NCBI RefSeq assembly: GCF_002198655.1
Contig: NZ_MWLN01000099.1
Coordinates: 1 to 38,778, forward strand
Origin: Kineosporia sp. A_224
GTDB lineage: Bacteria; Actinomycetota; Actinomycetes; Actinomycetales; Kineosporiaceae
DNA length: 38,778 nucleotides
Direction of reading: 5' to 3'
Below the pieces are notes generated by a model, which saw nothing but the letters and a program-made list of their open reading frames with translations, was not told where the DNA came from and did not search any database. How positions within the stretch are numbered: the first letter of the stretch is position 1; each line of letters opens with the position of its first letter. Position numbers and translations under genes: made by a program. This document shows, piece after piece, positions 527 through 38,703 of this stretch.

Positions 527-629
527 GTTGTGACTGAGTCCTATGGCGACCTTTTTGTCCGTGGGGGTCGGGACCTGTCGGCGGTCCGCGGTTGACTCTC
601 GACCAGGTCGAGACACGAGGGTCGGTCGG

Positions 630-1733
630 GTGGAGAGCACGTACGGGATCGGCGAGATGGCCCGGGCGACCGGGTTGTCGGTGGGCGCGCTGCGGTTCTA
701 CGACCGCGAGGGGCTGCTCGCCCCGGCGCACGTGGACCCGTGGTCCGGGTACCGGCGGTACGCGGACGAGCAGGTCGCCGTCGGGCGGCTCGTCGCCCGG
801 CTGCGCCGGGTCGGGCTGCCGCTGGCCGACGTCGGCCGGGTGCTCGCGCACCCGCACGACCGGGCCGTCGTCGGCGCCGTGCTCGGTGCGCACCTGCACC
901 GGCTCGAGACCGGCCTCGACCTGGCCCGGCGCGAGCTCTCCGCCGTCCTGGAGCAGCTCCGGGACGACCTCGACGACCAGGAGACCCCGATGACCAGCCA
1001 GACCAGCCCGAACGACCTGACCCTCACCCTGCCCGCCGCCGACCTCGCCACCGCCCTGCGCGGCGTCCGGTTCGCCGCCGGCACCGACCCGGCGCTCCCC
1101 GCGATCACGGGCGTCCTCCTCGACGTGGCGGGCGCGACCCTGCGGGTCGTCGCGACCGACCGCTACCGGCTCGCCGTGACGACGGTGCCGGTGGTCCGGC
1201 CGGACGGCGCGCAGGCCGGCCCGGCCGACGGTTCGGCGCTCGTGCCCGCCGCGTTCGCGGACGCCGTCGTCGCTGCCTGCCCGGCGGGCGCGGCCGACGC
1301 CCACGTCCTCCTCGGCCCCGACGTCGCCGTCACCGTCGCCGGCCGCACGCTGACGACCGCCGTCCTCGGCGCGCCGTACCCGCAGTGGGAGCGCCTCGTC
1401 CGGCCCGGCCGCACGACCGTCGTGACGCTCGACGCGACTGCGGTCCGCGACGGTGCCCGCGCCGCCCGCACGACGACCCGCCGCCGCGACGACGGGGCGA
1501 CGTTCGAGACGTGCGCCTTCCAGGTGTCCGGCGACGGGCTCGTGTGGCTCGCCCCCGACGATGCCGCCCACGGCGTCGCGGTGAACCGCGAGTTCCTCAT
1601 CGAGGCGGTCGAGGCCCTCGACGGCGACCAGCTCGTCCTCGGCGTCGACGACGCGCACACGCCGCTCGCGCTGACGAGCCCCGGCCGGCCGGGCGCCCTG
1701 AGCATCCTCATGCCGGTGCGGCACGACGGCTGA
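630..1733 (+). CDS. MerR-type regulator fused to a DNA polymerase III beta-clamp-like domain
   Basis: The protein has 367 aa. Residues 1-110 are a MerR-type winged helix: YGIGEMARATGLSVGALRFY, then DREGLL, the YRRYAD wing, and a helical region RRVGLPLADVGRVL followed by a coiled-coil-like segment. Residues about 125-367 resemble DnaN domains: TLTLPAADLATALRGV, then ITGVLLDVAGATLRVVATDR and YRLAV, as in the central clamp domain. The chosen start is GTG 630, which has GAGG 10 nt upstream; an upstream in-frame ATG at 543 would add residues that are not MerR-like. The role is not established. It may be a regulator that uses a clamp fold for dimerisation or ligand sensing rather than a processivity factor. 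It is divergent from the xylanase, but nothing shows it controls it. Confidence 0.8.
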   Translation: MESTYGIGEMARATGLSVGALRFYDREGLLAPAHVDPWSGYRRYADEQVAVGRLVARLRRVGLPLADVGRVLAHPHDRAVVGAVLGAHLHRLETGLDLARRELSAVLEQLRDDLDDQETPMTSQTSPNDLTLTLPAADLATALRGVRFAAGTDPALPAITGVLLDVAGATLRVVATDRYRLAVTTVPVVRPDGAQAGPADGSALVPAAFADAVVAACPAGAADAHVLLGPDVAVTVAGRTLTTAVLGAPYPQWERLVRPGRTTVVTLDATAVRDGARAARTTTRRRDDGATFETCAFQVSGDGLVWLAPDDAAHGVAVNREFLIEAVEALDGDQLVLGVDDAHTPLALTSPGRPGALSILMPVRHDG

Positions 1734-2889: not shown

Positions 2890-4224
2890 TCAGCCGGCCT
2901 TGCGGGCCTCGAGCGGCAGCCAGACGACGAGCCGGGTGCCGCGGCCGGGCTCGGAGGAGATGGTCAGCTCGCCCTGCTGCGCCCGGACCCGGTCCGCGAG
3001 CAGCGTGAGGCCGACGTGCCCGGCGGCCCGCTGCTTGACCAGGTCGCGCGAGGACATGCCCTGGCCGTCGTCCTCGATGAGCAGCGTCGCGACGCCGTCC
3101 CGGGCGGTGAGCGAGATCGTCGCGCGGGTCGCCGCGGCGTGCCGGGCGACGTTGCGGATCCCCTCCTGCGCCGCGCGGAACAGCAGCGCCCTGAGCTCGT
3201 GGTCCAGCGACACCGGGTCGATGTCGACGTCCACCCGGACCCCGCGGCCCTTGAGGTCGGCCGCGAGCTCGGGCAGCTCGCGGGCGAGGTCGATCGGCGG
3301 CGCGTCCCCGGGGTGCAGCTTGATGAGCATGGCCCGCAGCTGGGCGATGCTCGACCGCGAGGTCTCCGCGCCCTCGCGCAGCGTCGTCGCGAGCTCCTCC
3401 GTCGAGCGGCGGTGCACGCTGCTGGCGGTCGCGGCGAGGTCGAAAGCCATCCCGGCGAGGTCCTGGACGACGGTGTCGTGGAGGTCGGACGCGATCCGGC
3501 TCCGCTCGTCCTGCCGGGCGAGCTCGGCGCGGGCGAGCAGCTCGACGCGCTCCTCGGCCTCGGCCCGGGACCGGCGGCCCCACCACAGCGCCAGCGGCAG
3601 CTGGGCGAGCGCGAGCGCGAGCAGGGCGATGAGCATGACCGGCAGGTAGGACCACCAGATGGCGTGCGTGGCCGCCGCGACCCGGCCGCTCGTCTGGTAG
3701 GTCTCGGCGACGAGCCGGGTGCCGTCCGCGGCGACGACCGGCACGTACACCTCGAGGAGTTCGCCCTGGCCCTGCTCGAACGCGTGCTCGCCGGCGGTCG
3801 GGTCGGCGAACTCGGCGTCCGCGACGCCCGTACGCGCGACCTCGACGATGTCGGACGACGCCCCGGGCGCCGTCCCGATGAGCCGGTTCTCGTCGGACCA
3901 GACGATCCGCCCGTCGGGCGCCCACAGCTTGATCCGGACGATGACGTCCCCGAGAACGGCGCCCTCGGCCGCCTCCAGGCCGGCGAGCGCGACCGGGTCG
4001 CCGTCGAGCAGCGCCCGGCTCACGTGCGGCCGGATCGCGACGTCCGTGACGACCCGGGTCAGCTCGGTCGCGTCGCGCAGCGCCTCCTCGCGGGCGACCC
4101 GCTGGAGGACGAACAGGCCGGCCGTCGTGACGACGAGCAGGAGGGCGGAGGCCGAGATGACGAACTGGACGGCGGCCAGGGCACGTCCGGTGGGCCGGCC
4201 CCCGACGAAGCCGGGCAGCCTCAT
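2890..4224 (-). CDS. Membrane sensor histidine kinase, NarL/LiaS (HisKA_3) type
   Basis: The protein has 444 aa: a transmembrane helix at about 17-40, an extracytoplasmic sensor region of about 140 aa (FVLQRV through to VAAATHA), a second helix at about 188-213, then a HisKA_3 dimerisation domain with the box RSRIASDLHDTVVQDLAG (phospho-acceptor His249). The HATPase has N358 (GIRNVARH), DDGQG at 385-389 and GHVGL at 402-406. All residues for autophosphorylation are present. The start ATG overlaps the stop of the upstream kinase-like gene by 4 nt, so the two are translationally coupled. The likely partner is the NarL-type response regulator at 7646. The signal is unknown; the extracytoplasmic domain and the adjoining secreted protease suggest an envelope or extracellular cue. 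Confidence 0.88.
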   Translation of the reverse strand: MRLPGFVGGRPTGRALAAVQFVISASALLLVVTTAGLFVLQRVAREEALRDATELTRVVTDVAIRPHVSRALLDGDPVALAGLEAAEGAVLGDVIVRIKLWAPDGRIVWSDENRLIGTAPGASSDIVEVARTGVADAEFADPTAGEHAFEQGQGELLEVYVPVVAADGTRLVAETYQTSGRVAAATHAIWWSYLPVMLIALLALALAQLPLALWWGRRSRAEAEERVELLARAELARQDERSRIASDLHDTVVQDLAGMAFDLAATASSVHRRSTEELATTLREGAETSRSSIAQLRAMLIKLHPGDAPPIDLARELPELAADLKGRGVRVDVDIDPVSLDHELRALLFRAAQEGIRNVARHAAATRATISLTARDGVATLLIEDDGQGMSSRDLVKQRAAGHVGLTLLADRVRAQQGELTISSEPGRGTRLVVWLPLEARKAG

Positions 4225-5744
4225 CGCGGGACCCGCACCCAGAAGGTGACACCCGCGCCGGGCCGGTTGACGATCCCCGCCGAACCGCCGTGCGCCTCGG
4301 CGACGGTCCGCACGAGTGCGAGCCCGAGGCCGCCGCCGTCGCGGCGCGCGTCCGCCCGGTAGAAGGGCTCGAAGATGATCTCCTCGTGGCCGGCCGGGAC
4401 CCCGCCGCCCTCGTCGACGACCTCGAAGAGGATCGACCGGTCCTCCTCGACGGCGCGGAAGTTCACCGGGCGCGCCCCGGAGCCGTGGTCGGCGGTGTTC
4501 TGGAGCAGGCGCAGCAGCGCCTCCTCCATCCGGTCCTGGTCGAGCGCGGCGACGGTCGCGGTCGCCGGCGCGGCGGCGTGCAGCCGCTCGCCGAGGAACG
4601 GCTCGGCCTTCGTCGCGACGTTCGCGACGAGCTCGGCGAGCGGGACCTCCTTGCGGTCGACGTAGCCGGGCGTCTGGGAGCGCCCGATGTCGGCCATGTC
4701 GTCGAGGATCCGGCTCACGAGGCGCAGGTCGGCGCGGGTCTCCTCGCTGATCCCGGGGGCAGGGGCGGCGCCGTTGTGGCCGGCGCCGTTCTGCTGGCGG
4801 CGGTCGACGGCGCTCGAGATCGCCCCGATCGGGCGGCGCAGCCGGCCGGCGACGTCGGCCATGAGCTGGCGCTGCCGGTGGAGCGCGAGCTCGAGCTGGT
4901 CGAGCATGTGGTTGAGCGCGACGGCGAGCTCCGGCAGCCGGCCGCCGCCCTCGCCGACGGGGAGCCTGGCCTCGAAGGCGCGCTCGCGCGCGATCGCCTC
5001 GGCCCCCTTCATCATCTGCTCCATCTGGTTCGCCTCGATGGTGCTGCGCACCCAGTCCCGGTAGGCGAGGGAGAGCAGCACGATCGGCAGCGCGAGCAGG
5101 ACGACGCCGTAAGGGCTGACGTTCCACAGCACTGCGGCGAGCAGCCCGACCGAGACGTTGCCGACCCACTGGATGTTCGTCAGCCGCCACGGCCCGAAGA
5201 GGACGCCGCGCAGCGGTTCGGCCTGGACGAGCGAGATGACGACCGCGACGAGCCCGACGTTGAGGACCGACGCCAGCGCCATCGCCGCCGCGGCGATCGC
5301 CCACGTCACCGGGTCGAGCGGGTCGCGCCCCGAGCCGCCCAGGCCGAAGACGGCCTCCGCGACGGTGAGCGCGACGGCGACCTGCCCGACGTTGAAGGCG
5401 ATCTTGCGCAGCGGCCACCGCGCGGCCACCTGCCAGGCGGCGGTGCCGAGCACGGCACCGAGCGTCGGCACGCCCGGCACGGTGAGCAGCAGCGCCGTCG
5501 TCCACACGGCGTCGGAGAGCATGACGTGCTCGGTCTCGTCGCCGTGCGGGAGCTGGAACGTGAACCGGTCGGCGACGACGACCGCCGCGGCGACCACGAC
5601 GAGGGCGAGGAGGTCCCCGGACGTCAGGTCACCGGCACGGCTCACCGCGAGGGCGACCGCGAGCACGCCGAGCACCGACACCGCGGCGATGAAGACGCGT
5701 GCGGCGGGCGGGATCCCGGTCGTCGGGGCGGAGGGTTCGGTCAC
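4221..5744 (-). CDS. Membrane histidine-kinase-like protein lacking the phospho-acceptor His
   Basis: The protein has 507 aa. The N-terminal about 230 residues hold six or more hydrophobic helices. A linker resembling HAMP follows (RERAFEARLPVGEGGGRLPE, LNHMLDQL), then a DHp-like helix and a HATPase. The DHp motif reads LMADVAGRLRRPIGAI where the family has ADVSHELRTPL, so the His position is Gly300. The ATP-binding half looks intact: N416 (LLQNTADHG), DEGGG at 444-448, FEPFYR at 458-463 and GGGLGLAL at 470-477. It may be a pseudokinase or co-sensor modulating the kinase downstream. The GTG start follows directly after the protease stop codon (0-nt gap), and its stop overlaps the next kinase start. 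The His loss is seen directly; its meaning is inference. Confidence 0.8.
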   Translation of the reverse strand: MTEPSAPTTGIPPAARVFIAAVSVLGVLAVALAVSRAGDLTSGDLLALVVVAAAVVVADRFTFQLPHGDETEHVMLSDAVWTTALLLTVPGVPTLGAVLGTAAWQVAARWPLRKIAFNVGQVAVALTVAEAVFGLGGSGRDPLDPVTWAIAAAAMALASVLNVGLVAVVISLVQAEPLRGVLFGPWRLTNIQWVGNVSVGLLAAVLWNVSPYGVVLLALPIVLLSLAYRDWVRSTIEANQMEQMMKGAEAIARERAFEARLPVGEGGGRLPELAVALNHMLDQLELALHRQRQLMADVAGRLRRPIGAISSAVDRRQQNGAGHNGAAPAPGISEETRADLRLVSRILDDMADIGRSQTPGYVDRKEVPLAELVANVATKAEPFLGERLHAAAPATATVAALDQDRMEEALLRLLQNTADHGSGARPVNFRAVEEDRSILFEVVDEGGGVPAGHEEIIFEPFYRADARRDGGGLGLALVRTVAEAHGGSAGIVNRPGAGVTFWVRVPR

Positions 5745-7487
5745 CTACTGCCACATCCCCGTGCCCCAGTAGCGACCGCCCCAGTAGCGACCGCCCCAGT
5801 ATCGGCCGTCCCAGCCGGCCTCGAGCCAGCCGGGGGCGCCGTAGTAGTCGGGCTCCCAGGTGAGCTGCGGGACCCGGCCGCCGGTCCAGGCCGGGGCCGG
5901 GGCGGAGCCGGCGATCTCCGCGGTCGCTGCCGACCACGGGCTCGCGGCCCAGGTCGCGGGGCTCCACGGCGTCGTCACCGCGGCCGCCGTCCACGGGGTG
6001 CCGAGCGCGTCGACCTCGCCGGTGAGCAGCGTCGGGACGCCGTCCCCGTCGACGTCGGCGTACACCGGGTGGGTGCCCCGGGTGGCCTGGAGCGGGCCGG
6101 TCCCGGTCGAGGCCACCGCTGCGGCGTTCGCCGCGGGGAGCGGCCCTGCGGACGTCGCGAGCGCGACGGCCTGCGCGGCGTCGACGAGGCCCGCACCGCC
6201 GCCAGCCGCACCGGCGAGGGTCCGGTCGGTGGTCGCGAGCAGGACGCCCTTGACCTGGTCCGGGGTGAGCGCCGGGTTCGCGGCGACCATCCGGGCGACG
6301 ACGCCGGCGACGATCGCCGACGCCTGCGAGGTGCCCGCGCCGCGGAAGTAGTCGACGCCGACCCGGGCCGCGGGGCGGAAGGTGTCGATGGTGCTGCCGG
6401 GGGCGCGCAGGCCCACGAGGGCGACGCCGGGGGCGAGCAGGTCGGGCTTGTCCGCACCGTCCGCCGTCGGGCCGCGGCTGGAGAAGGCCGCGACGACGTC
6501 GTCCGCCGGCTGCGCCGTGCCCGCGATGTCGGCCGCGCCGACGGTGATGGCGAACGGGTCGTCACCGGGCTTGGTGATCGAAGACGCCGCGCCGGCGTTG
6601 CCCGCCGACATGACGACGACGATCCCGGCCCGCCAGGCCTGCTCGACGGCGGCGGCCAGCGGGTCGGAGCCCGTCGGCCCGGCCGCGTCGGTGCCGAAGG
6701 AGAGGTTGACGACGCGGATCCCGTACGTGTCGCGGTGCGCGACGACCCAGTGCAGACCGGCGACGATCGTCGAGACGTCGGTCGCGCCGTCCCAGCCGGC
6801 GACCTTGACCGACACGACGTCGGCCTGCTCGGCCGCGCCGCTGTACCGCTCGAGGGACAGCGCACCGTCACCGGCGACGAGGCCGATCATGTGCGTGCCG
6901 TGGCCGAAGTGGTCGAGGCCGTCGTGCTCGGCGGTGAGGTCGACCCGGGCGACGAGCCGCTCGCCCAGGTCCGCGGACGGCGTGACCCCGGTGTCGAGGA
7001 CGGCGACGGTGACACCGCCGCCGCGGTTCTTGTTCGGCACCTGGTCCAGGCCGATGGCCTGCTGCCAGATCTCCGTCTCGGGGAGCGCGTCGAAGCACGA
7101 GGGGTCGGTCGCCGGGCAGGCGCTGACGCCGGTGACCGGGTCCTGCTCGAGCCGCTCGGTGCGGAGCACGAGCGGGGACTGCCGCACGGGGATCAGCGTG
7201 CCGGCGGGCAGCCGGGCCTCGAAGCCGCCCTGCGCGGGCAGCTGCTTCTTGACCCGGCCGCCGAGCGAGATGACGAGGTTCTCGGCGGCGTAGGAGGCCG
7301 GGTTCTTCTCGACGACGAGCACGCGGGACTCCGACGACGGGCCGAGGTCGGTGCTGCCCGAGGTGCCGGTGGCCGCGGACGCGGACAGCGCGGAGCCCGT
7401 CATGACGAGACCGGCGCACGAGAGCGCGGCCGCGCTCCTGCGCAGCAACGGTCGAACGGTGCTCCGGCCAGCGACGTTCGCCGTCAT
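5745..7487 (-). CDS. Secreted subtilisin-family (S8) serine protease with W/Y-rich tail
   Basis: The protein has 580 aa. A signal peptide (PLLRRSAAALSCAGLVMTG, cleavage near SASA) is followed by a propeptide-like segment to about residue 150. The S8 catalytic domain has Asp165 (AVLDTGV), His196 (HFGHGTH), Asn297 (MSAGNAG) and Ser387 (GAGTSQAS). After about residue 450 the domain gives way to a low-complexity region with spaced tryptophans (TPWTAA, TPWSPATW, SPWSAATAE), ending in a GGRYW repeat and GMWQ. The tail has no LPXTG motif. The start ATG 7487 has GAGGAG about 8 bases upstream. It is the first gene of a run with two kinase-like genes (0-nt gap to the second), which suggests that the protease activity is sensed or regulated by that system. 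Confidence 0.9.
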   Translation of the reverse strand: MTANVAGRSTVRPLLRRSAAALSCAGLVMTGSALSASAATGTSGSTDLGPSSESRVLVVEKNPASYAAENLVISLGGRVKKQLPAQGGFEARLPAGTLIPVRQSPLVLRTERLEQDPVTGVSACPATDPSCFDALPETEIWQQAIGLDQVPNKNRGGGVTVAVLDTGVTPSADLGERLVARVDLTAEHDGLDHFGHGTHMIGLVAGDGALSLERYSGAAEQADVVSVKVAGWDGATDVSTIVAGLHWVVAHRDTYGIRVVNLSFGTDAAGPTGSDPLAAAVEQAWRAGIVVVMSAGNAGAASSITKPGDDPFAITVGAADIAGTAQPADDVVAAFSSRGPTADGADKPDLLAPGVALVGLRAPGSTIDTFRPAARVGVDYFRGAGTSQASAIVAGVVARMVAANPALTPDQVKGVLLATTDRTLAGAAGGGAGLVDAAQAVALATSAGPLPAANAAAVASTGTGPLQATRGTHPVYADVDGDGVPTLLTGEVDALGTPWTAAAVTTPWSPATWAASPWSAATAEIAGSAPAPAWTGGRVPQLTWEPDYYGAPGWLEAGWDGRYWGGRYWGGRYWGTGMWQ

Positions 7488-7645
7488 CCTGGCTCCTCGG
7501 GGGGTCTTGTTCCTGGCCTGACCTCGCAGGTTTGCACGCGAGGGGTGGGTGGCGCCCTTGGACATCAGTCCTACGACCTGCGCGGGGGGCATCGACGTCC
7601 CGTCGGCCCTGTCCCCCGCGGCCCCGGACCGGGAGACTGGCGCGC
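7488..7645. promoter_or_regulatory. Divergent promoter region, protease operon / response regulator
   Basis: This 158-bp divergent intergenic region must hold promoters for both the minus-strand protease-kinase run and the plus-strand regulator. It contains an inverted repeat, CCTCGC (7522-7527) with GCGAGG (7538-7543), separated by 10 bases, which could be a regulator site. No clear -10/-35 pair was identified, and binding by the encoded regulator is a guess. Confidence 0.3.
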
Positions 7646-8284
7646 ATGACGTCCGACGGCACGGTCCGGCTCCTGCTCTGCGACGACCACGCGGTCGTGC
7701 GCAAGGGCCTGACCCGGCTGCTGTCGGGCTACGAGGGCGTCGAGGTGGTCGGTGAGGCGGCGGACGGCGCCGAGGGCGTGGACGCTGCGGCGGCGCTCGC
7801 ACCGGACGTCATCCTCATGGACCTCGTCATGCCGAACGTCGACGGCATCGAGGCCACCCGGCGGATCGTCGAGGCCGACCCCGGGGCCCGCGTGCTCGTG
7901 CTCACGAGCTTCTCGGACGGCGACCGGGTGCGGTCGGCGATCGAGGCCGGCGCGCTCGGCTACTGCCTCAAGGACGCCCAGCCCGACGAGCTGGTCCGGG
8001 CGATCCGCTCCGTCGCCCGCGGCGAGTCCCCGATCGACCCCCGGGCCGCGCGGTCGTTCATCGACCAGGACCGCGTCGAGAAGCCCGGCGCCTCGCTGAC
8101 GCCGCGCGAGCGCGAGGTGCTCGAGCTGCTCGGGACCGGCATGACGAACCGGGCGATCGCCGTCCGGCTGGGCATCACCGAGGCGACGGTGAAGACCTAC
8201 CTCACCGACATCTACCGCCAGATCGGTGCGTCCGACCGCACCCAGGCCGCGCTCTTCGTGAGCAAGAACGGCTTCCGGGCCTGA
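7646..8284 (+). CDS. NarL/FixJ-family response regulator
   Basis: The protein has 212 aa. The receiver domain (1-120) has acidic pair D13/D14 (LLCDDHAVVR), phospho-acceptor Asp59 (ILMDLVMPNVDG), Thr87/Ser88 and Lys109 (YCLKDAQPDE). A LuxR-type HTH at about 150-205 reads LTPREREVLELLGTGMTNRA, then ITEATVKTYL. The start ATG 7646 has GGGAG about 10 bases upstream. It lies divergent from the protease/kinase run and is the obvious phosphorylation partner of the His249 kinase. It probably binds DNA as a phosphorylated dimer and may control the shared intergenic region. Confidence 0.93.
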   Translation: MTSDGTVRLLLCDDHAVVRKGLTRLLSGYEGVEVVGEAADGAEGVDAAAALAPDVILMDLVMPNVDGIEATRRIVEADPGARVLVLTSFSDGDRVRSAIEAGALGYCLKDAQPDELVRAIRSVARGESPIDPRAARSFIDQDRVEKPGASLTPREREVLELLGTGMTNRAIAVRLGITEATVKTYLTDIYRQIGASDRTQAALFVSKNGFRA

Positions 8285-29554: not shown

Positions 29555-31495
29555 ATGGTCGAGCGGGTGTCGCAGTGCGCGGTCGGAGTCGGTGACGCCG
29601 GCCTCGCCGAGCTGCCGGTGGACCCGTTCGGTGAGGAGATCCGCTGGACCGCAGCGGATCTGCTGGAGTGCCCGGTTGGGGGCGAGGAGCTGCAGCGCGT
29701 CCTGGCCGCTGAGCGGGCGGCCCGGTTGGTCGACGACTGGTGGGCGGATCCTGGTGCGGCGCGGCGGGACTGGGATGCCGACCTCGCCCGGTTGTCCGCG
29801 CTGGTCGTTGCCGATGATCGGCGGGACGTGGTCGAGCGGCGGGCCGTCCTCGACGGTGCGCCGGGTCTCGGGTCGTTCGCGGCGGCGCTGGAGGTCCTCG
29901 ACGGGGCGGCGGCGTGGACGCCGGAGCAGGCCGCTGTGGAGGGGTTCGTCGACGAGCTGGAAGACGGTGCGATCTCGGGGTTCGCGGCGGCGCGGCGGGT
30001 GGAGAACCATGCGCTGTGGCTGCAGGTCGCTCTTGCGGCGAAGGTCGTCCGGGCGTTCACCGGGCGTACCCCGTCGTTGCCGCGCCGGACCCGGTCAGGG
30101 CGGCTGCTGACGGACGACCAGGACGCCCTGGTCGACGGGTCGGTCGCGCTCGAGCTCGCGGTCGCGGCCGGGATCACCCAGGGCAGGGCCGCCGCCCTGG
30201 TCGACGCCGCGACCGCGCTCGTCATCGACCAGCGGTTGCCGCTGACGGCGCAGGTCCTGGAGCAGGGCCGGCTCGACTGGCCGCGGTTGCGGATGGTCGT
30301 GTCCCGGACCCGGGCGCTGACCGTCGACGCCGCGCAGGCCGTCGAGCGGCTGGTGTACGCGACACCCGCGGTGCTGGACGGGGGCACTCGCCGGTTCGAC
30401 ACCGCGCTGACTGCCGCGGTCCTGGCGGTGGATGCGGACGCGGAGGCCAAGCGCCGCAAGCGGCTGCGCAGGGGCCGCCGGGTGAGCATCCAGACCACCG
30501 ACGACGGTGCCGCCCTGTTCACCGCGGTCGGGCCGGGTGAGGCGGTCACCGCCGCGTACAACGGCCTGGACGCCGCCGCCCGTTACCTCAGGCAACACGG
30601 CGACCCACGGACCCTGGACCAGCTCCGCCACGACCTGTTCGTCACCGGCTGCACCAGCGGCTACCTCCCGGTCCCCGCTGACATCCTGCCGGTCCCGCCC
30701 GGGTGCGTCCCCGACGGCTCGACCACTGCGGCGCCCGGCTCGGTGGTCACCGGCCAGACCGGCCAGACCGGCCAGACCGGCCAGACCAGCGCGACCGGCG
30801 CGACCAGCAACGCGGCCGCCGGCGCGGCCGCCATCGACACCACGGCCAGTGCCGGAAGCACCGACGAGCAGACAGTGCCCGAGTGGTTCACCACCACCTG
30901 GCCCGACGTCCAGGTCGCCGTCAACGTCACCGTCTCCGCCGAGACCCTGATGGGCCTGGTCAACGACCCCGGCACGCTCCAGGGGTACGGGCCGATCCCG
31001 GCGGATGCGATCCGCGACCTCGCGAAGAACGGTGTGTTCCGGTGTCTGGTCGTCGATGGCGAGCACGGCACGGTGCTGGGGGTCGGGAAGAACACGTTCA
31101 CGCCCGGGTACGTCGCGAGCGAACGGTTGAAGCTGCTCATCGAGCACGCGTTCCCGACGTGCACCGCGCCGCACTGCGAGAAGCCCTCGTGGCGCTGCGA
31201 TCTCGATCATGCGACGCCCTACGCACAGGGCGGAGCCACATGCTCATGCACCGTGAGACCGCTCTGCAGACCGTGCCATCGACTCAAGACCGCCGGACTC
31301 CTCGTGCCGGAACAACGCCACGACCCCGCCGACCCACCCGGCACCACCACCTGGACCACCCGCACCGGACGCGCCTACACCGCACTCCCCCACACGCCGC
31401 TGCCGCACGCCCTGATGCCGCACGCTGTGGTGCCGGCCGCCGGCGTCGGTCGACCGCGGTCGGCTCGTTCGGTCGAGGACCCACCTCCGTTCTAG
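29555..31495 (+). CDS. DUF222/13E12-type protein with C-terminal HNH endonuclease domain
   Basis: The protein has 646 aa. The DUF222 (13E12 repeat) region spans roughly 60-340, with helical segments such as ISGFAAARRVENHALWLQ and TDDGAALFTAVGPGEAV. A low-complexity linker with a TGQ repeat at about 399-411 precedes the HNH domain: HCEKPSWRCDLDHATPYAQG around 541-560, then CTVRPLCRPCHRLKT. The usual Asn of the HNH core is Thr here and a His is Cys (CRPCH), so nuclease activity is uncertain. M. tuberculosis 13E12 genes are known LexA targets, and a perfect LexA box precedes this one. These genes spread as repeats and may be mobile. Confidence 0.9.
   Translation: MVERVSQCAVGVGDAGLAELPVDPFGEEIRWTAADLLECPVGGEELQRVLAAERAARLVDDWWADPGAARRDWDADLARLSALVVADDRRDVVERRAVLDGAPGLGSFAAALEVLDGAAAWTPEQAAVEGFVDELEDGAISGFAAARRVENHALWLQVALAAKVVRAFTGRTPSLPRRTRSGRLLTDDQDALVDGSVALELAVAAGITQGRAAALVDAATALVIDQRLPLTAQVLEQGRLDWPRLRMVVSRTRALTVDAAQAVERLVYATPAVLDGGTRRFDTALTAAVLAVDADAEAKRRKRLRRGRRVSIQTTDDGAALFTAVGPGEAVTAAYNGLDAAARYLRQHGDPRTLDQLRHDLFVTGCTSGYLPVPADILPVPPGCVPDGSTTAAPGSVVTGQTGQTGQTGQTSATGATSNAAAGAAAIDTTASAGSTDEQTVPEWFTTTWPDVQVAVNVTVSAETLMGLVNDPGTLQGYGPIPADAIRDLAKNGVFRCLVVDGEHGTVLGVGKNTFTPGYVASERLKLLIEHAFPTCTAPHCEKPSWRCDLDHATPYAQGGATCSCTVRPLCRPCHRLKTAGLLVPEQRHDPADPPGTTTWTTRTGRAYTALPHTPLPHALMPHAVVPAAGVGRPRSARSVEDPPPF
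30752..30787 (+). repeat. Four-copy 9-bp tandem repeat inside DUF222-HNH gene
   Basis: The 9-base unit GGCCAGACC occurs four times in perfect tandem and encodes a TGQ repeat in the interdomain linker. The period is a multiple of three, so copy-number changes would alter linker length without a frameshift. Confidence 0.9.
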
Positions 31496-31549: not shown

Positions 31550-31622
31550 GTTCCTGATCTGCGCGTTCCTGATCTGCGCGTTCCTGATCTGCGCGTTCCC
31601 GATCAGCGCGTTCCCGACCTGC
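31550..31622. repeat. 15-bp tandem repeat downstream of DUF222-HNH gene
   Basis: GTTCCTGATCTGCGC occurs three times perfectly (31550-31594) followed by two diverged copies to 31622. It lies in the 231-bp gap between the HNH gene and the dihydrofolate-reductase-like gene. It could be a variable-number minisatellite. No gene is evident in the gap. Confidence 0.85.
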
Positions 31623-38123: not shown

Positions 38124-38225
38124 CGGTGCAGGAGGGTCACCGATGCAGGAGGGTCACCGGTGCAGGAGGGTCACCGGTGCAGGAGGGTCACCGGTGCAGG
38201 AGGGTCACAGGTGCAGGAGGGTCAC
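38124..38225. repeat. Six-copy 17-bp tandem repeat
   Basis: The unit CGGTGCAGGAGGGTCAC occurs six times from 38124 to 38225 with one or two substitutions per copy. It covers the gap after the permease gene and includes its stop codon (38222-38224) in the last copy. As 17 is not a multiple of three, expansion into the gene would alter the C-terminus. Confidence 0.95.
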
Positions 38226-38703
38226 AGGTGCGCGAGGCTGTCGCGGATCGTGAGCCGCGAGGCGCGGGACGCCGCGGCCCAGCCGGCCGCCGCGGCGCCG
38301 ACGAGCGCGAGCGCCGCCCAGGTCGCGACCCCCGGCGCCGACACGGTGAACGGCAGCGGCAGGTCGAAGGTCAGCTCGCCGACGAGGCGCTGCACGCTGC
38401 GCGAGACCGGCAGCGCGGCGACCGCGCCGAGCGCTCCGCCGAGGAGCCCGATGGCGAGGCTCTCGGTGAGGACGAGGCGCCGGATCGTGCCCGGCCCGGC
38501 GCCGAGCGTCTGCAGGACGCCGTACTCCCGCGTCCGCTCCGTCACCGAGATCGTCATCGCGGACGCCAGCCCGAGCACCCCGACGACCGCCATGAGCAGG
38601 GCCAGCGCGACGAGGGTGTCCACGAAGATCACGACGTGCTCGTCGACGGCGCTGCGCAGCTCGCGGCTCAGGGTCGTCGAGTCCGTGCGGTACCCCGCGG
38701 CGG
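38222..38703 (-). CDS. FtsX-like ABC transporter permease, C-terminal part
   Basis: About 160 C-terminal residues are present. The segments VDTLVALALLMAVVGVLGLA, then TISVTERTREYGVLQTLGAG and LTESLAIGLLGGALGAVAAL are membrane helices and the conserved cytoplasmic loop of FtsX/MacB-type permeases, which work with an ATPase to move lipids or lipoproteins or to regulate the cell wall. The 5' part is missing. The sequence beyond 38703 is the reverse complement of 38568-38642, so the true gene cannot be followed; any start read there would be false. The ATPase partner is not in the window. Confidence 0.85.

Follow-up and report, generated by a model that had tools for sequence, protein, structure and literature searches.

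A four-gene locus of Kineosporia joining a Trp-pentad subtilase and a His-less kinase-like membrane protein to NarL-type two-component parts: a possible signaling module

In the DNA of Kineosporia sp. A_224 analyzed here (hereafter designated the window; bases 1 to 38,778 of contig C242, from a high-GC genome of 7.2 Mb), a response regulator (RR), a secreted subtilase, a histidine-kinase-like protein with multiple transmembrane (TM) segments, and a NarL-type histidine kinase are encoded side by side (Table 1). All four genes had been named in the original prediction for this DNA and were recovered as open reading frames (ORFs) and by Pfam. The predicted divergence of the RR and subtilase genes from a common upstream region was likewise found; for the RR, the most likely start is the ATG at 7646, which delimits the divergent intergenic region of 158 nt, and for the subtilase it is the ATG at 7487, though its ORF extends to 7802. 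At the subtilase/kinase-like junction, the stop codon TAG directly abuts the start codon GTG, in agreement with the predicted distance of 0 nt, whereas the "4 nt between" coding sequences predicted for the second junction has the wrong sign, the kinase-like and NarL-type kinase genes overlapping by 4 nt (ATGA).

Table 1 Genes and sequence features of the four-gene locus (positions in the window).
Feature	Position	Strand	Remarks
RR, NarL/FixJ-type, 212 aa	7646..8284	+	Receiver Asp59, LuxR-type helix-turn-helix (HTH); divergent
Divergent intergenic region, 158 nt	7488..7645	.	Common to RR and subtilase genes
Inverted repeat GGACATCAGTCC, candidate RR site	7560..7571	.	Weak; chosen after the sequence was seen
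Subtilase (S8), secreted, 580 aa	5745..7487	-	Peptidase_S8 E=2e-41; catalytic motifs present
Trp pentad run, subtilase C-terminus	5751..5828	-	Trp at 554, 559, 564, 569, 574, 579
Multi-TM MASE9-like membrane protein, histidine-kinase-like cytoplasmic part, 507 aa	4221..5744	-	Lacks phospho-acceptor His
Gly300 codon (GGC), phospho-acceptor position of kinase-like protein	4845..4847	-	
NarL-type histidine kinase, 444 aa	2890..4224	-	HisKA_3 His249 and HATPase_c

The subtilase belongs to peptidase family S8 by its profile and its Asp-His-Ser motifs (AVLDTG at 162, GHGTH at 195, and GTSQAS at 385); a sequence search of the PDB with the subtilase domain returned subtilisins, and the N-terminus looks like a signal peptide when judged by eye. 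From about residue 499 onward extends a Trp-rich tail, the coding region of which includes a DNA repeat with a period of 15 (5763-5814). Among 95 such proteins, successive Trp residues were five apart in 1118 of the 1344 steps, Gly or Ala stood two residues past Trp in 79%, and the catalytic motifs were found in 92, one of the three failures (L196) being cut by a contig end. Apart from this unusual tail, the window protein is an ordinary S8 domain. Its best named match in NCBIfam is the mycosin of the type VII secretion system (TIGR03921; 106.1 bits, below the cut-off of 278.75 bits), from which it differs by the Trp-pentad tail. Weak matches were also obtained with the Csp proteases and pseudoproteases of clostridial spores, subtilases that are employed in signaling; to our knowledge, the Csp systems have neither a multi-TM partner nor a two-component output. 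Pentapeptide-repeat proteins share the strict five-residue period, but the constant residue of the present tail is Trp, unlike theirs. In Pfam, the window subtilase matched no pentapeptide model at E up to 0.01; among ten relatives scanned, the tail of L138 passed GETHR (PF05671; 32.3 versus 22.4 bits), and those of L141 and L199 matched pentapeptide models below the cut-off.

At the position where HisKA kinases have the phospho-acceptor His in SHELRTP, the kinase-like protein reads DVAGRLRRP, with Gly300 instead. The same Gly is present in both congeners, L010 (Kineosporia sp. R_H_3) and L009 (Actinomycetota bacterium, a groundwater metagenome-assembled genome), which are counted as two genomes because the kinase-like proteins are identical in L009 and L018 and in L010 and L017. 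Pfam gave no HisKA match at E up to 0.01 but retained HATPase_c (E=1.8e-18), and the N, G1, F, and G2 boxes were located by motif at 413, 444, 458, and 470, so that the earlier description as a His-less kinase proved correct. The ratio of nonsynonymous to synonymous substitution rates (dN/dS) was as low as 0.11 against L009 and 0.10 against L010, indicating that the protein is under purifying selection and not decaying; for the ATPase part, the ratios were 0.12 and 0.03, respectively, with just 1 to 4 amino-acid changes. Plasmid records matching the protein numbered 171, none covering more than 80% of it, and the ten listed match residues 261-507 only.

The N-terminal membrane domain resembles MASE9 (PF20972), likewise a multi-TM N-terminal sensor with varying outputs, although the window protein had no match at E up to 0.01 and the subtilase-linked proteins scored beneath the cut-off where scanned: four of seven gave a weak match (E 0.007-0.041), and all seven stayed at or below 16.7 bits against a gathering score of 24.3. 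A relative with an HD-GYP output and no subtilase (L190) passes that score with 24.7 bits. The domain is a distant relative of MASE9. MASE9-like domains were also observed on proteins of about 430-500 aa in L188-L192, L197, and L200, with no subtilase in the stretch examined; HD-GYP-type domains were confirmed by Pfam in L188 and L190.

The remaining two proteins, judged by the domains listed in Table 1, are probably ordinary NarL-type two-component parts, and the RR is identical in the window genome, L009, and L010. Two predicted TMs flank a putative sensor domain in the kinase. The combination of a HisKA_3 kinase, a LuxR-type RR, and an extra membrane protein recalls UhpABC, LiaFSR, and VraTSR; here, in contrast, that membrane protein resembles MASE9 and the layout includes an exported subtilase, and the window kinase scored far below the NCBIfam equivalog cut-offs for UhpB (75.2 versus 408) and LiaS (75.7 versus 450). 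In the divergent promoter, GGACNNNNGTCC has its single match in the window, where 3.24 would be expected over the whole length. This GGAC-N4-GTCC repeat, which we take to resemble a DosR/DevR-type box, is conserved in L009 as well as in L010. A single repeat lying there is suggestive of autoregulation by the RR, but the motif was selected once the sequence had been seen.

The association of the subtilase with the membrane domain was analyzed in 80 loci collected by similarity to the window subtilase (four candidates scored per genome; a few further matches left out), with 20 loci of long subtilases, taken from the weakest matches of the same list, as controls. A tail was defined as three or more consecutive Trp at five-residue spacing, and a pair as a membrane domain encoded next on the same strand and starting within 900 nt of the subtilase stop; subtilases with less than 400 nt of downstream sequence were excluded (7 of 81 in the first set and 1 of 22 in the controls). 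The membrane domain came next in 63 of 73 tailed subtilases, as compared with 0 of 22 untailed ones, 21 of which were from the control loci, chosen in other families. Because the untailed proteins were thus mostly from families other than the tailed ones, the test was redone inside ten genomes, where, among the 30 loci listed, 9 of 10 tailed and 0 of 14 untailed subtilases with at least 600 nt of room were paired; 7 of the 31 subtilases were dropped for too little room, and the tailed proteins overlap the first set, the untailed ones being new. In a blind scan for seven Trp codons five apart, which used neither protein, 81 of the 391 genomes examined in the phylum matched; many of the matches were in other frames, as they were with a reversed-pattern control. 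Among the 22 loci listed, 12 had no subtilase match and 10 had a Trp-pentad subtilase; nine of the latter were of other classes, all nine followed by the membrane domain, and the tenth was L176 of the window genome, an exception without it. For 78 pairs, subtilase distances correlated with membrane-domain distances (Spearman 0.40, against a maximum of 0.186 in 999 permutations), and the closest relative of a protein had the same output in 68 of 76 cases by the subtilase and 71 of 76 by the membrane domain, both figures still containing species phylogeny.

Besides the subtilase of the locus, the window genome encodes two further Trp-pentad subtilases, L166 (G000:C169), with a GGDEF-EAL membrane protein 492 nt after the subtilase, and L176 (G000:C118), for which no membrane partner was found. 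In L207, L210, L211, and L212, a divergent RR lies near an untailed subtilase of about 1250-1300 aa for which no membrane partner was found, perhaps another protease-RR arrangement.

The outputs attached to the membrane domain, assigned by our own profiles in 62 pairs (62 of 71 by a Trp count rule), were GGDEF+EAL (36), kinase (17), SpoIIE (2), and GGDEF+HD-GYP (1), with five proteins truncated and the remaining one having no output domain and a separate kinase instead. Pfam confirmed SpoIIE in L120 and L165, GGDEF and EAL in L117, and HisKA in L107. The gap was 60 nt or less in 46 of the 62 pairs. In 18 of 18 other kinase-output partners, the phospho-acceptor His is kept.

The order of the four genes is the same in both congeneric genomes sampled, with the RR seen in each. 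A profile built from 14 relatives of the membrane protein was further searched in 394 genomes of the class (E up to 1e-30), matching 27 places in 26 genomes, in which the 14 profile rows match by construction. Fourteen of the 27 loci, in 14 genomes of six families, none of them the window's, are complete, consisting of a divergent LuxR-type RR, a subtilase, a membrane protein with no kinase-profile match, and a NarL-type kinase (hereafter designated the kinase-less layout). Four others (L196, L198, L303, and L306) have the subtilase, membrane protein, and kinase, the contig stopping at the subtilase; one (L185) has the RR, subtilase, and membrane protein, the remainder being cut; and three (L307, L309, and L310) are too truncated. 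In the last five (L205, L228, L305, L308, and L311), the RR is divergent from the membrane protein without a subtilase between them; the kinase comes next in L205 and L305, and the contig ends before it or soon after in L228, L308, and L311. With start codons assigned by rule, the membrane-protein and kinase genes overlap by 4 nt in 11 of the 15 loci having both. In a phylum-wide sample that included no genome known to match, with four candidates scored per genome, the kinase-less family was found in 0 of 396. The predicted module was to fail if relatives did not conserve the order. The neighborhood search that had been proposed did not refute it; the order is kept in two congeners and in 14 genomes of six other families, which supports the prediction of a single system with an exported protease linked to its sensor.

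The "two-kinase sensor" of the same prediction was not supported in that form. The phospho-acceptor His is missing from the middle protein, and kinase profiles, our own in all 14 relatives and Pfam in three of these, find nothing in its counterpart; a membrane sensor or adaptor is the better reading of this protein, and the NarL-type protein is probably the sole conventional kinase of the locus. A PDB sequence search with the kinase-less membrane proteins gave none at E up to 0.1. By eye, these proteins have a Gly five residues ahead of a Pro, as in the window. A degenerate kinase helix in them was rejected by profile comparison with the HisKA region of the 18 partner kinases (probability 0.3%, no better than a GAF-region control).

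The window kinase aligns over most of its length, including the sensor region, with two kinases of its own genome (C175:17181, 35%; C10:93659, 34%), and the window RR is 52% identical to that of C175:18491-19096, the gene of which lies directly behind the C175 kinase gene (L312), with no subtilase or membrane partner found within 10 kb. In the kinase tree, the window kinase groups with these paralogues (support 0.926), and the kinases of the kinase-less layout form their own clade (1.000); in the RR tree, read for topology only, the window RR groups with the C175 paralogue, apart from the RRs of the kinase-less layout. Since the window kinase and RR thus group with own-genome paralogues, the layout seems to have two origins, with separate recruitment of the kinase and RR. 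This is likely but not proven, because the node uniting both kinase groups has a support of 0.443, the background of both trees is one genome, and the RR tree is read by topology alone. In the membrane-domain tree (topology only), the window protein and that of L076, a locus with a subtilase and a partner kinase retaining an intact SHELRTP, are sisters beside the kinase-less clade.

Upstream of the subtilase, 8 of 13 kinase-less four-gene loci carry the element AAAGT-N13-TGCCGA, as compared with 0.04 expected from block shuffles. The pattern AAAG[TC]-N12to15-GCCGA was first noticed in some of these loci and then counted; the spacing is fixed in L185, L187, L193, L194, L201, L202, L203, and L226. 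Elsewhere, the counts were 0/40 for GGDEF-EAL, 0/17 for kinase, 0/3 for SpoIIE, 0/2 for truncated, and 0/3 for window-type loci and 0/21 for controls, with one occurrence in 17 loci without a membrane partner (L177, N12). The element resembles the FliA/WhiG (sigma-28/WhiG) promoter consensus. A flagellar or motility link was not supported, because FlhA was found in only 3 of the 26 genomes having kinase-less membrane proteins and was not found in any of the eight with the element, several of these genomes being incomplete. The window is devoid of the element, though its genome has FlhA.

At roughly even odds (a probability of about 0.5), we read the locus as a signaling module, in which the Trp-pentad subtilase and the MASE9-like protein may serve as the input and the pseudokinase may pass the signal on to the NarL-type kinase and RR. 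This reading is based on the observed layout, conservation, pairing statistics, domain content, loss of the His, and purifying selection, from which we infer the contact between tail and membrane protein, the direction of signaling, autoregulation, and the stimulus. The exported subtilase and the multi-TM protein encoded directly behind it would form an input unit, with the Trp tail holding the subtilase at the cell surface and the membrane protein reading its state, that is, maturation, binding of a substrate or inhibitor, or cleavage of the tail. In other loci, this unit would drive an output domain carried by the membrane protein itself, whether GGDEF-EAL, GGDEF+HD-GYP, SpoIIE phosphatase, or histidine kinase. 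In the window, the kinase part of that protein, having lost its His, would act as an ATP-binding pseudokinase adjusting the separate NarL-type kinase, which would phosphorylate the divergent LuxR-type RR, and the RR would control the shared promoter and probably other genes too.

On a broader scale, and with somewhat less confidence, the Trp-pentad subtilase and the MASE9-like protein might constitute an undescribed plug-in receptor across Actinomycetota, with a protease as the sensing subunit and at least five outputs, rewired in the window through the pseudokinase and through a NarL-type kinase and RR recruited independently of the other lineage having the same layout. No description of the subtilase/membrane-protein/two-component combination was found by text searches of one open-access library. 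Should the pair indeed be the input, one type of extracellular partner would be common to many actinobacterial proteins with GGDEF-EAL, kinase, or SpoIIE domains, and the function of the Trp repeats at the C-terminus of these subtilases would become testable; a protease-sensor pair joined to differing outputs suggests an undescribed way to sense the outside. The L076 kinase with its His, the window pseudokinase, and the 14 loci with no kinase domain found offer a natural comparison of swapped outputs behind related sensors.

Several observations weigh against the signaling module. Some proteins with HD-GYP or GGDEF-EAL outputs carry the membrane domain even where no subtilase is encoded in the stretch examined, and 10 of the 73 tailed subtilases, including L176, have no membrane domain. 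The five loci in which no subtilase lies between the RR and the membrane protein belong here as well, and a divergent RR alone is not specific, because untailed subtilases in some control genomes have it too. The window kinase may sense on its own by its apparent extracytoplasmic domain, and structure modeling of the subtilase alone by AlphaFold2 failed (mean pLDDT, the predicted local distance difference test, 34.3).

The unpaired tailed subtilases and these five loci, together with the divergent promoter common to the RR and subtilase genes, would also fit a subtilase that is the regulated product, the membrane protein and kinases sensing something else and the protease executing the response (remodeling of the matrix or wall, or feeding). 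We consider this unlikely; it leaves unexplained why the same pair stands, mostly at gaps of 60 nt or less, beside cyclic di-GMP (c-di-GMP), kinase, and SpoIIE outputs and why the tail tracks the pairing. The outputs change while the pair stays, and the pair is therefore more likely an input than a product. The tight coupling of tail and membrane domain and the short gaps and overlaps between the genes may instead mean that the multi-TM protein is chiefly an accessory to the subtilase, which it would anchor to the membrane, mature, or inhibit there, and that its cytoplasmic domain reports the success of export. To this we give a rather small chance, because the same domain, with no subtilase nearby, is found on complete c-di-GMP enzymes and so is a signaling domain in its own right. 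That the His-less kinase is still catalytic, its ATPase domain phosphorylating the partner kinase in a mixed complex, would account for ATP-binding boxes that are present and conserved in the genus, but appears improbable in view of the relatives of the layout that lack the ATPase domain by the profiles described above and of HisKA and HisKA_3 kinases being distinct families. Ordinary adjacency of four genes that are unrelated and stay side by side only because the species compared are closely related is scarcely credible, for although the 97% identity within the genus would not exclude it, the layout recurs in six other families with diverged proteins (the RR of L184 is 33% identical to that of the window) and apparently separately derived kinases and RRs.

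Just past the NarL-type kinase gene lies a perfect inverted repeat (2818-2866; 23-bp stem, 3-nt loop; folding energy of 2805-2880, -52.8 kcal/mol, z -9.6), which was not seen in the 105-108 nt following that gene in L009 and L010 and may be a terminator or an inserted palindrome. An Rfam scan of the window gave no family reaching its gathering score. At 543-1733 (+), the window encodes a protein with an N-terminal MerR-type HTH (Pfam MerR_1) joined to a DNA polymerase III beta-clamp-like domain (DNA_pol3_beta_2), and tandem repeats are located at 38124-38231 (17 bp, 6.4 copies), 31550-31622 (15 bp, 4.9 copies), and 30749-30799 (9 bp, 5.7 copies).

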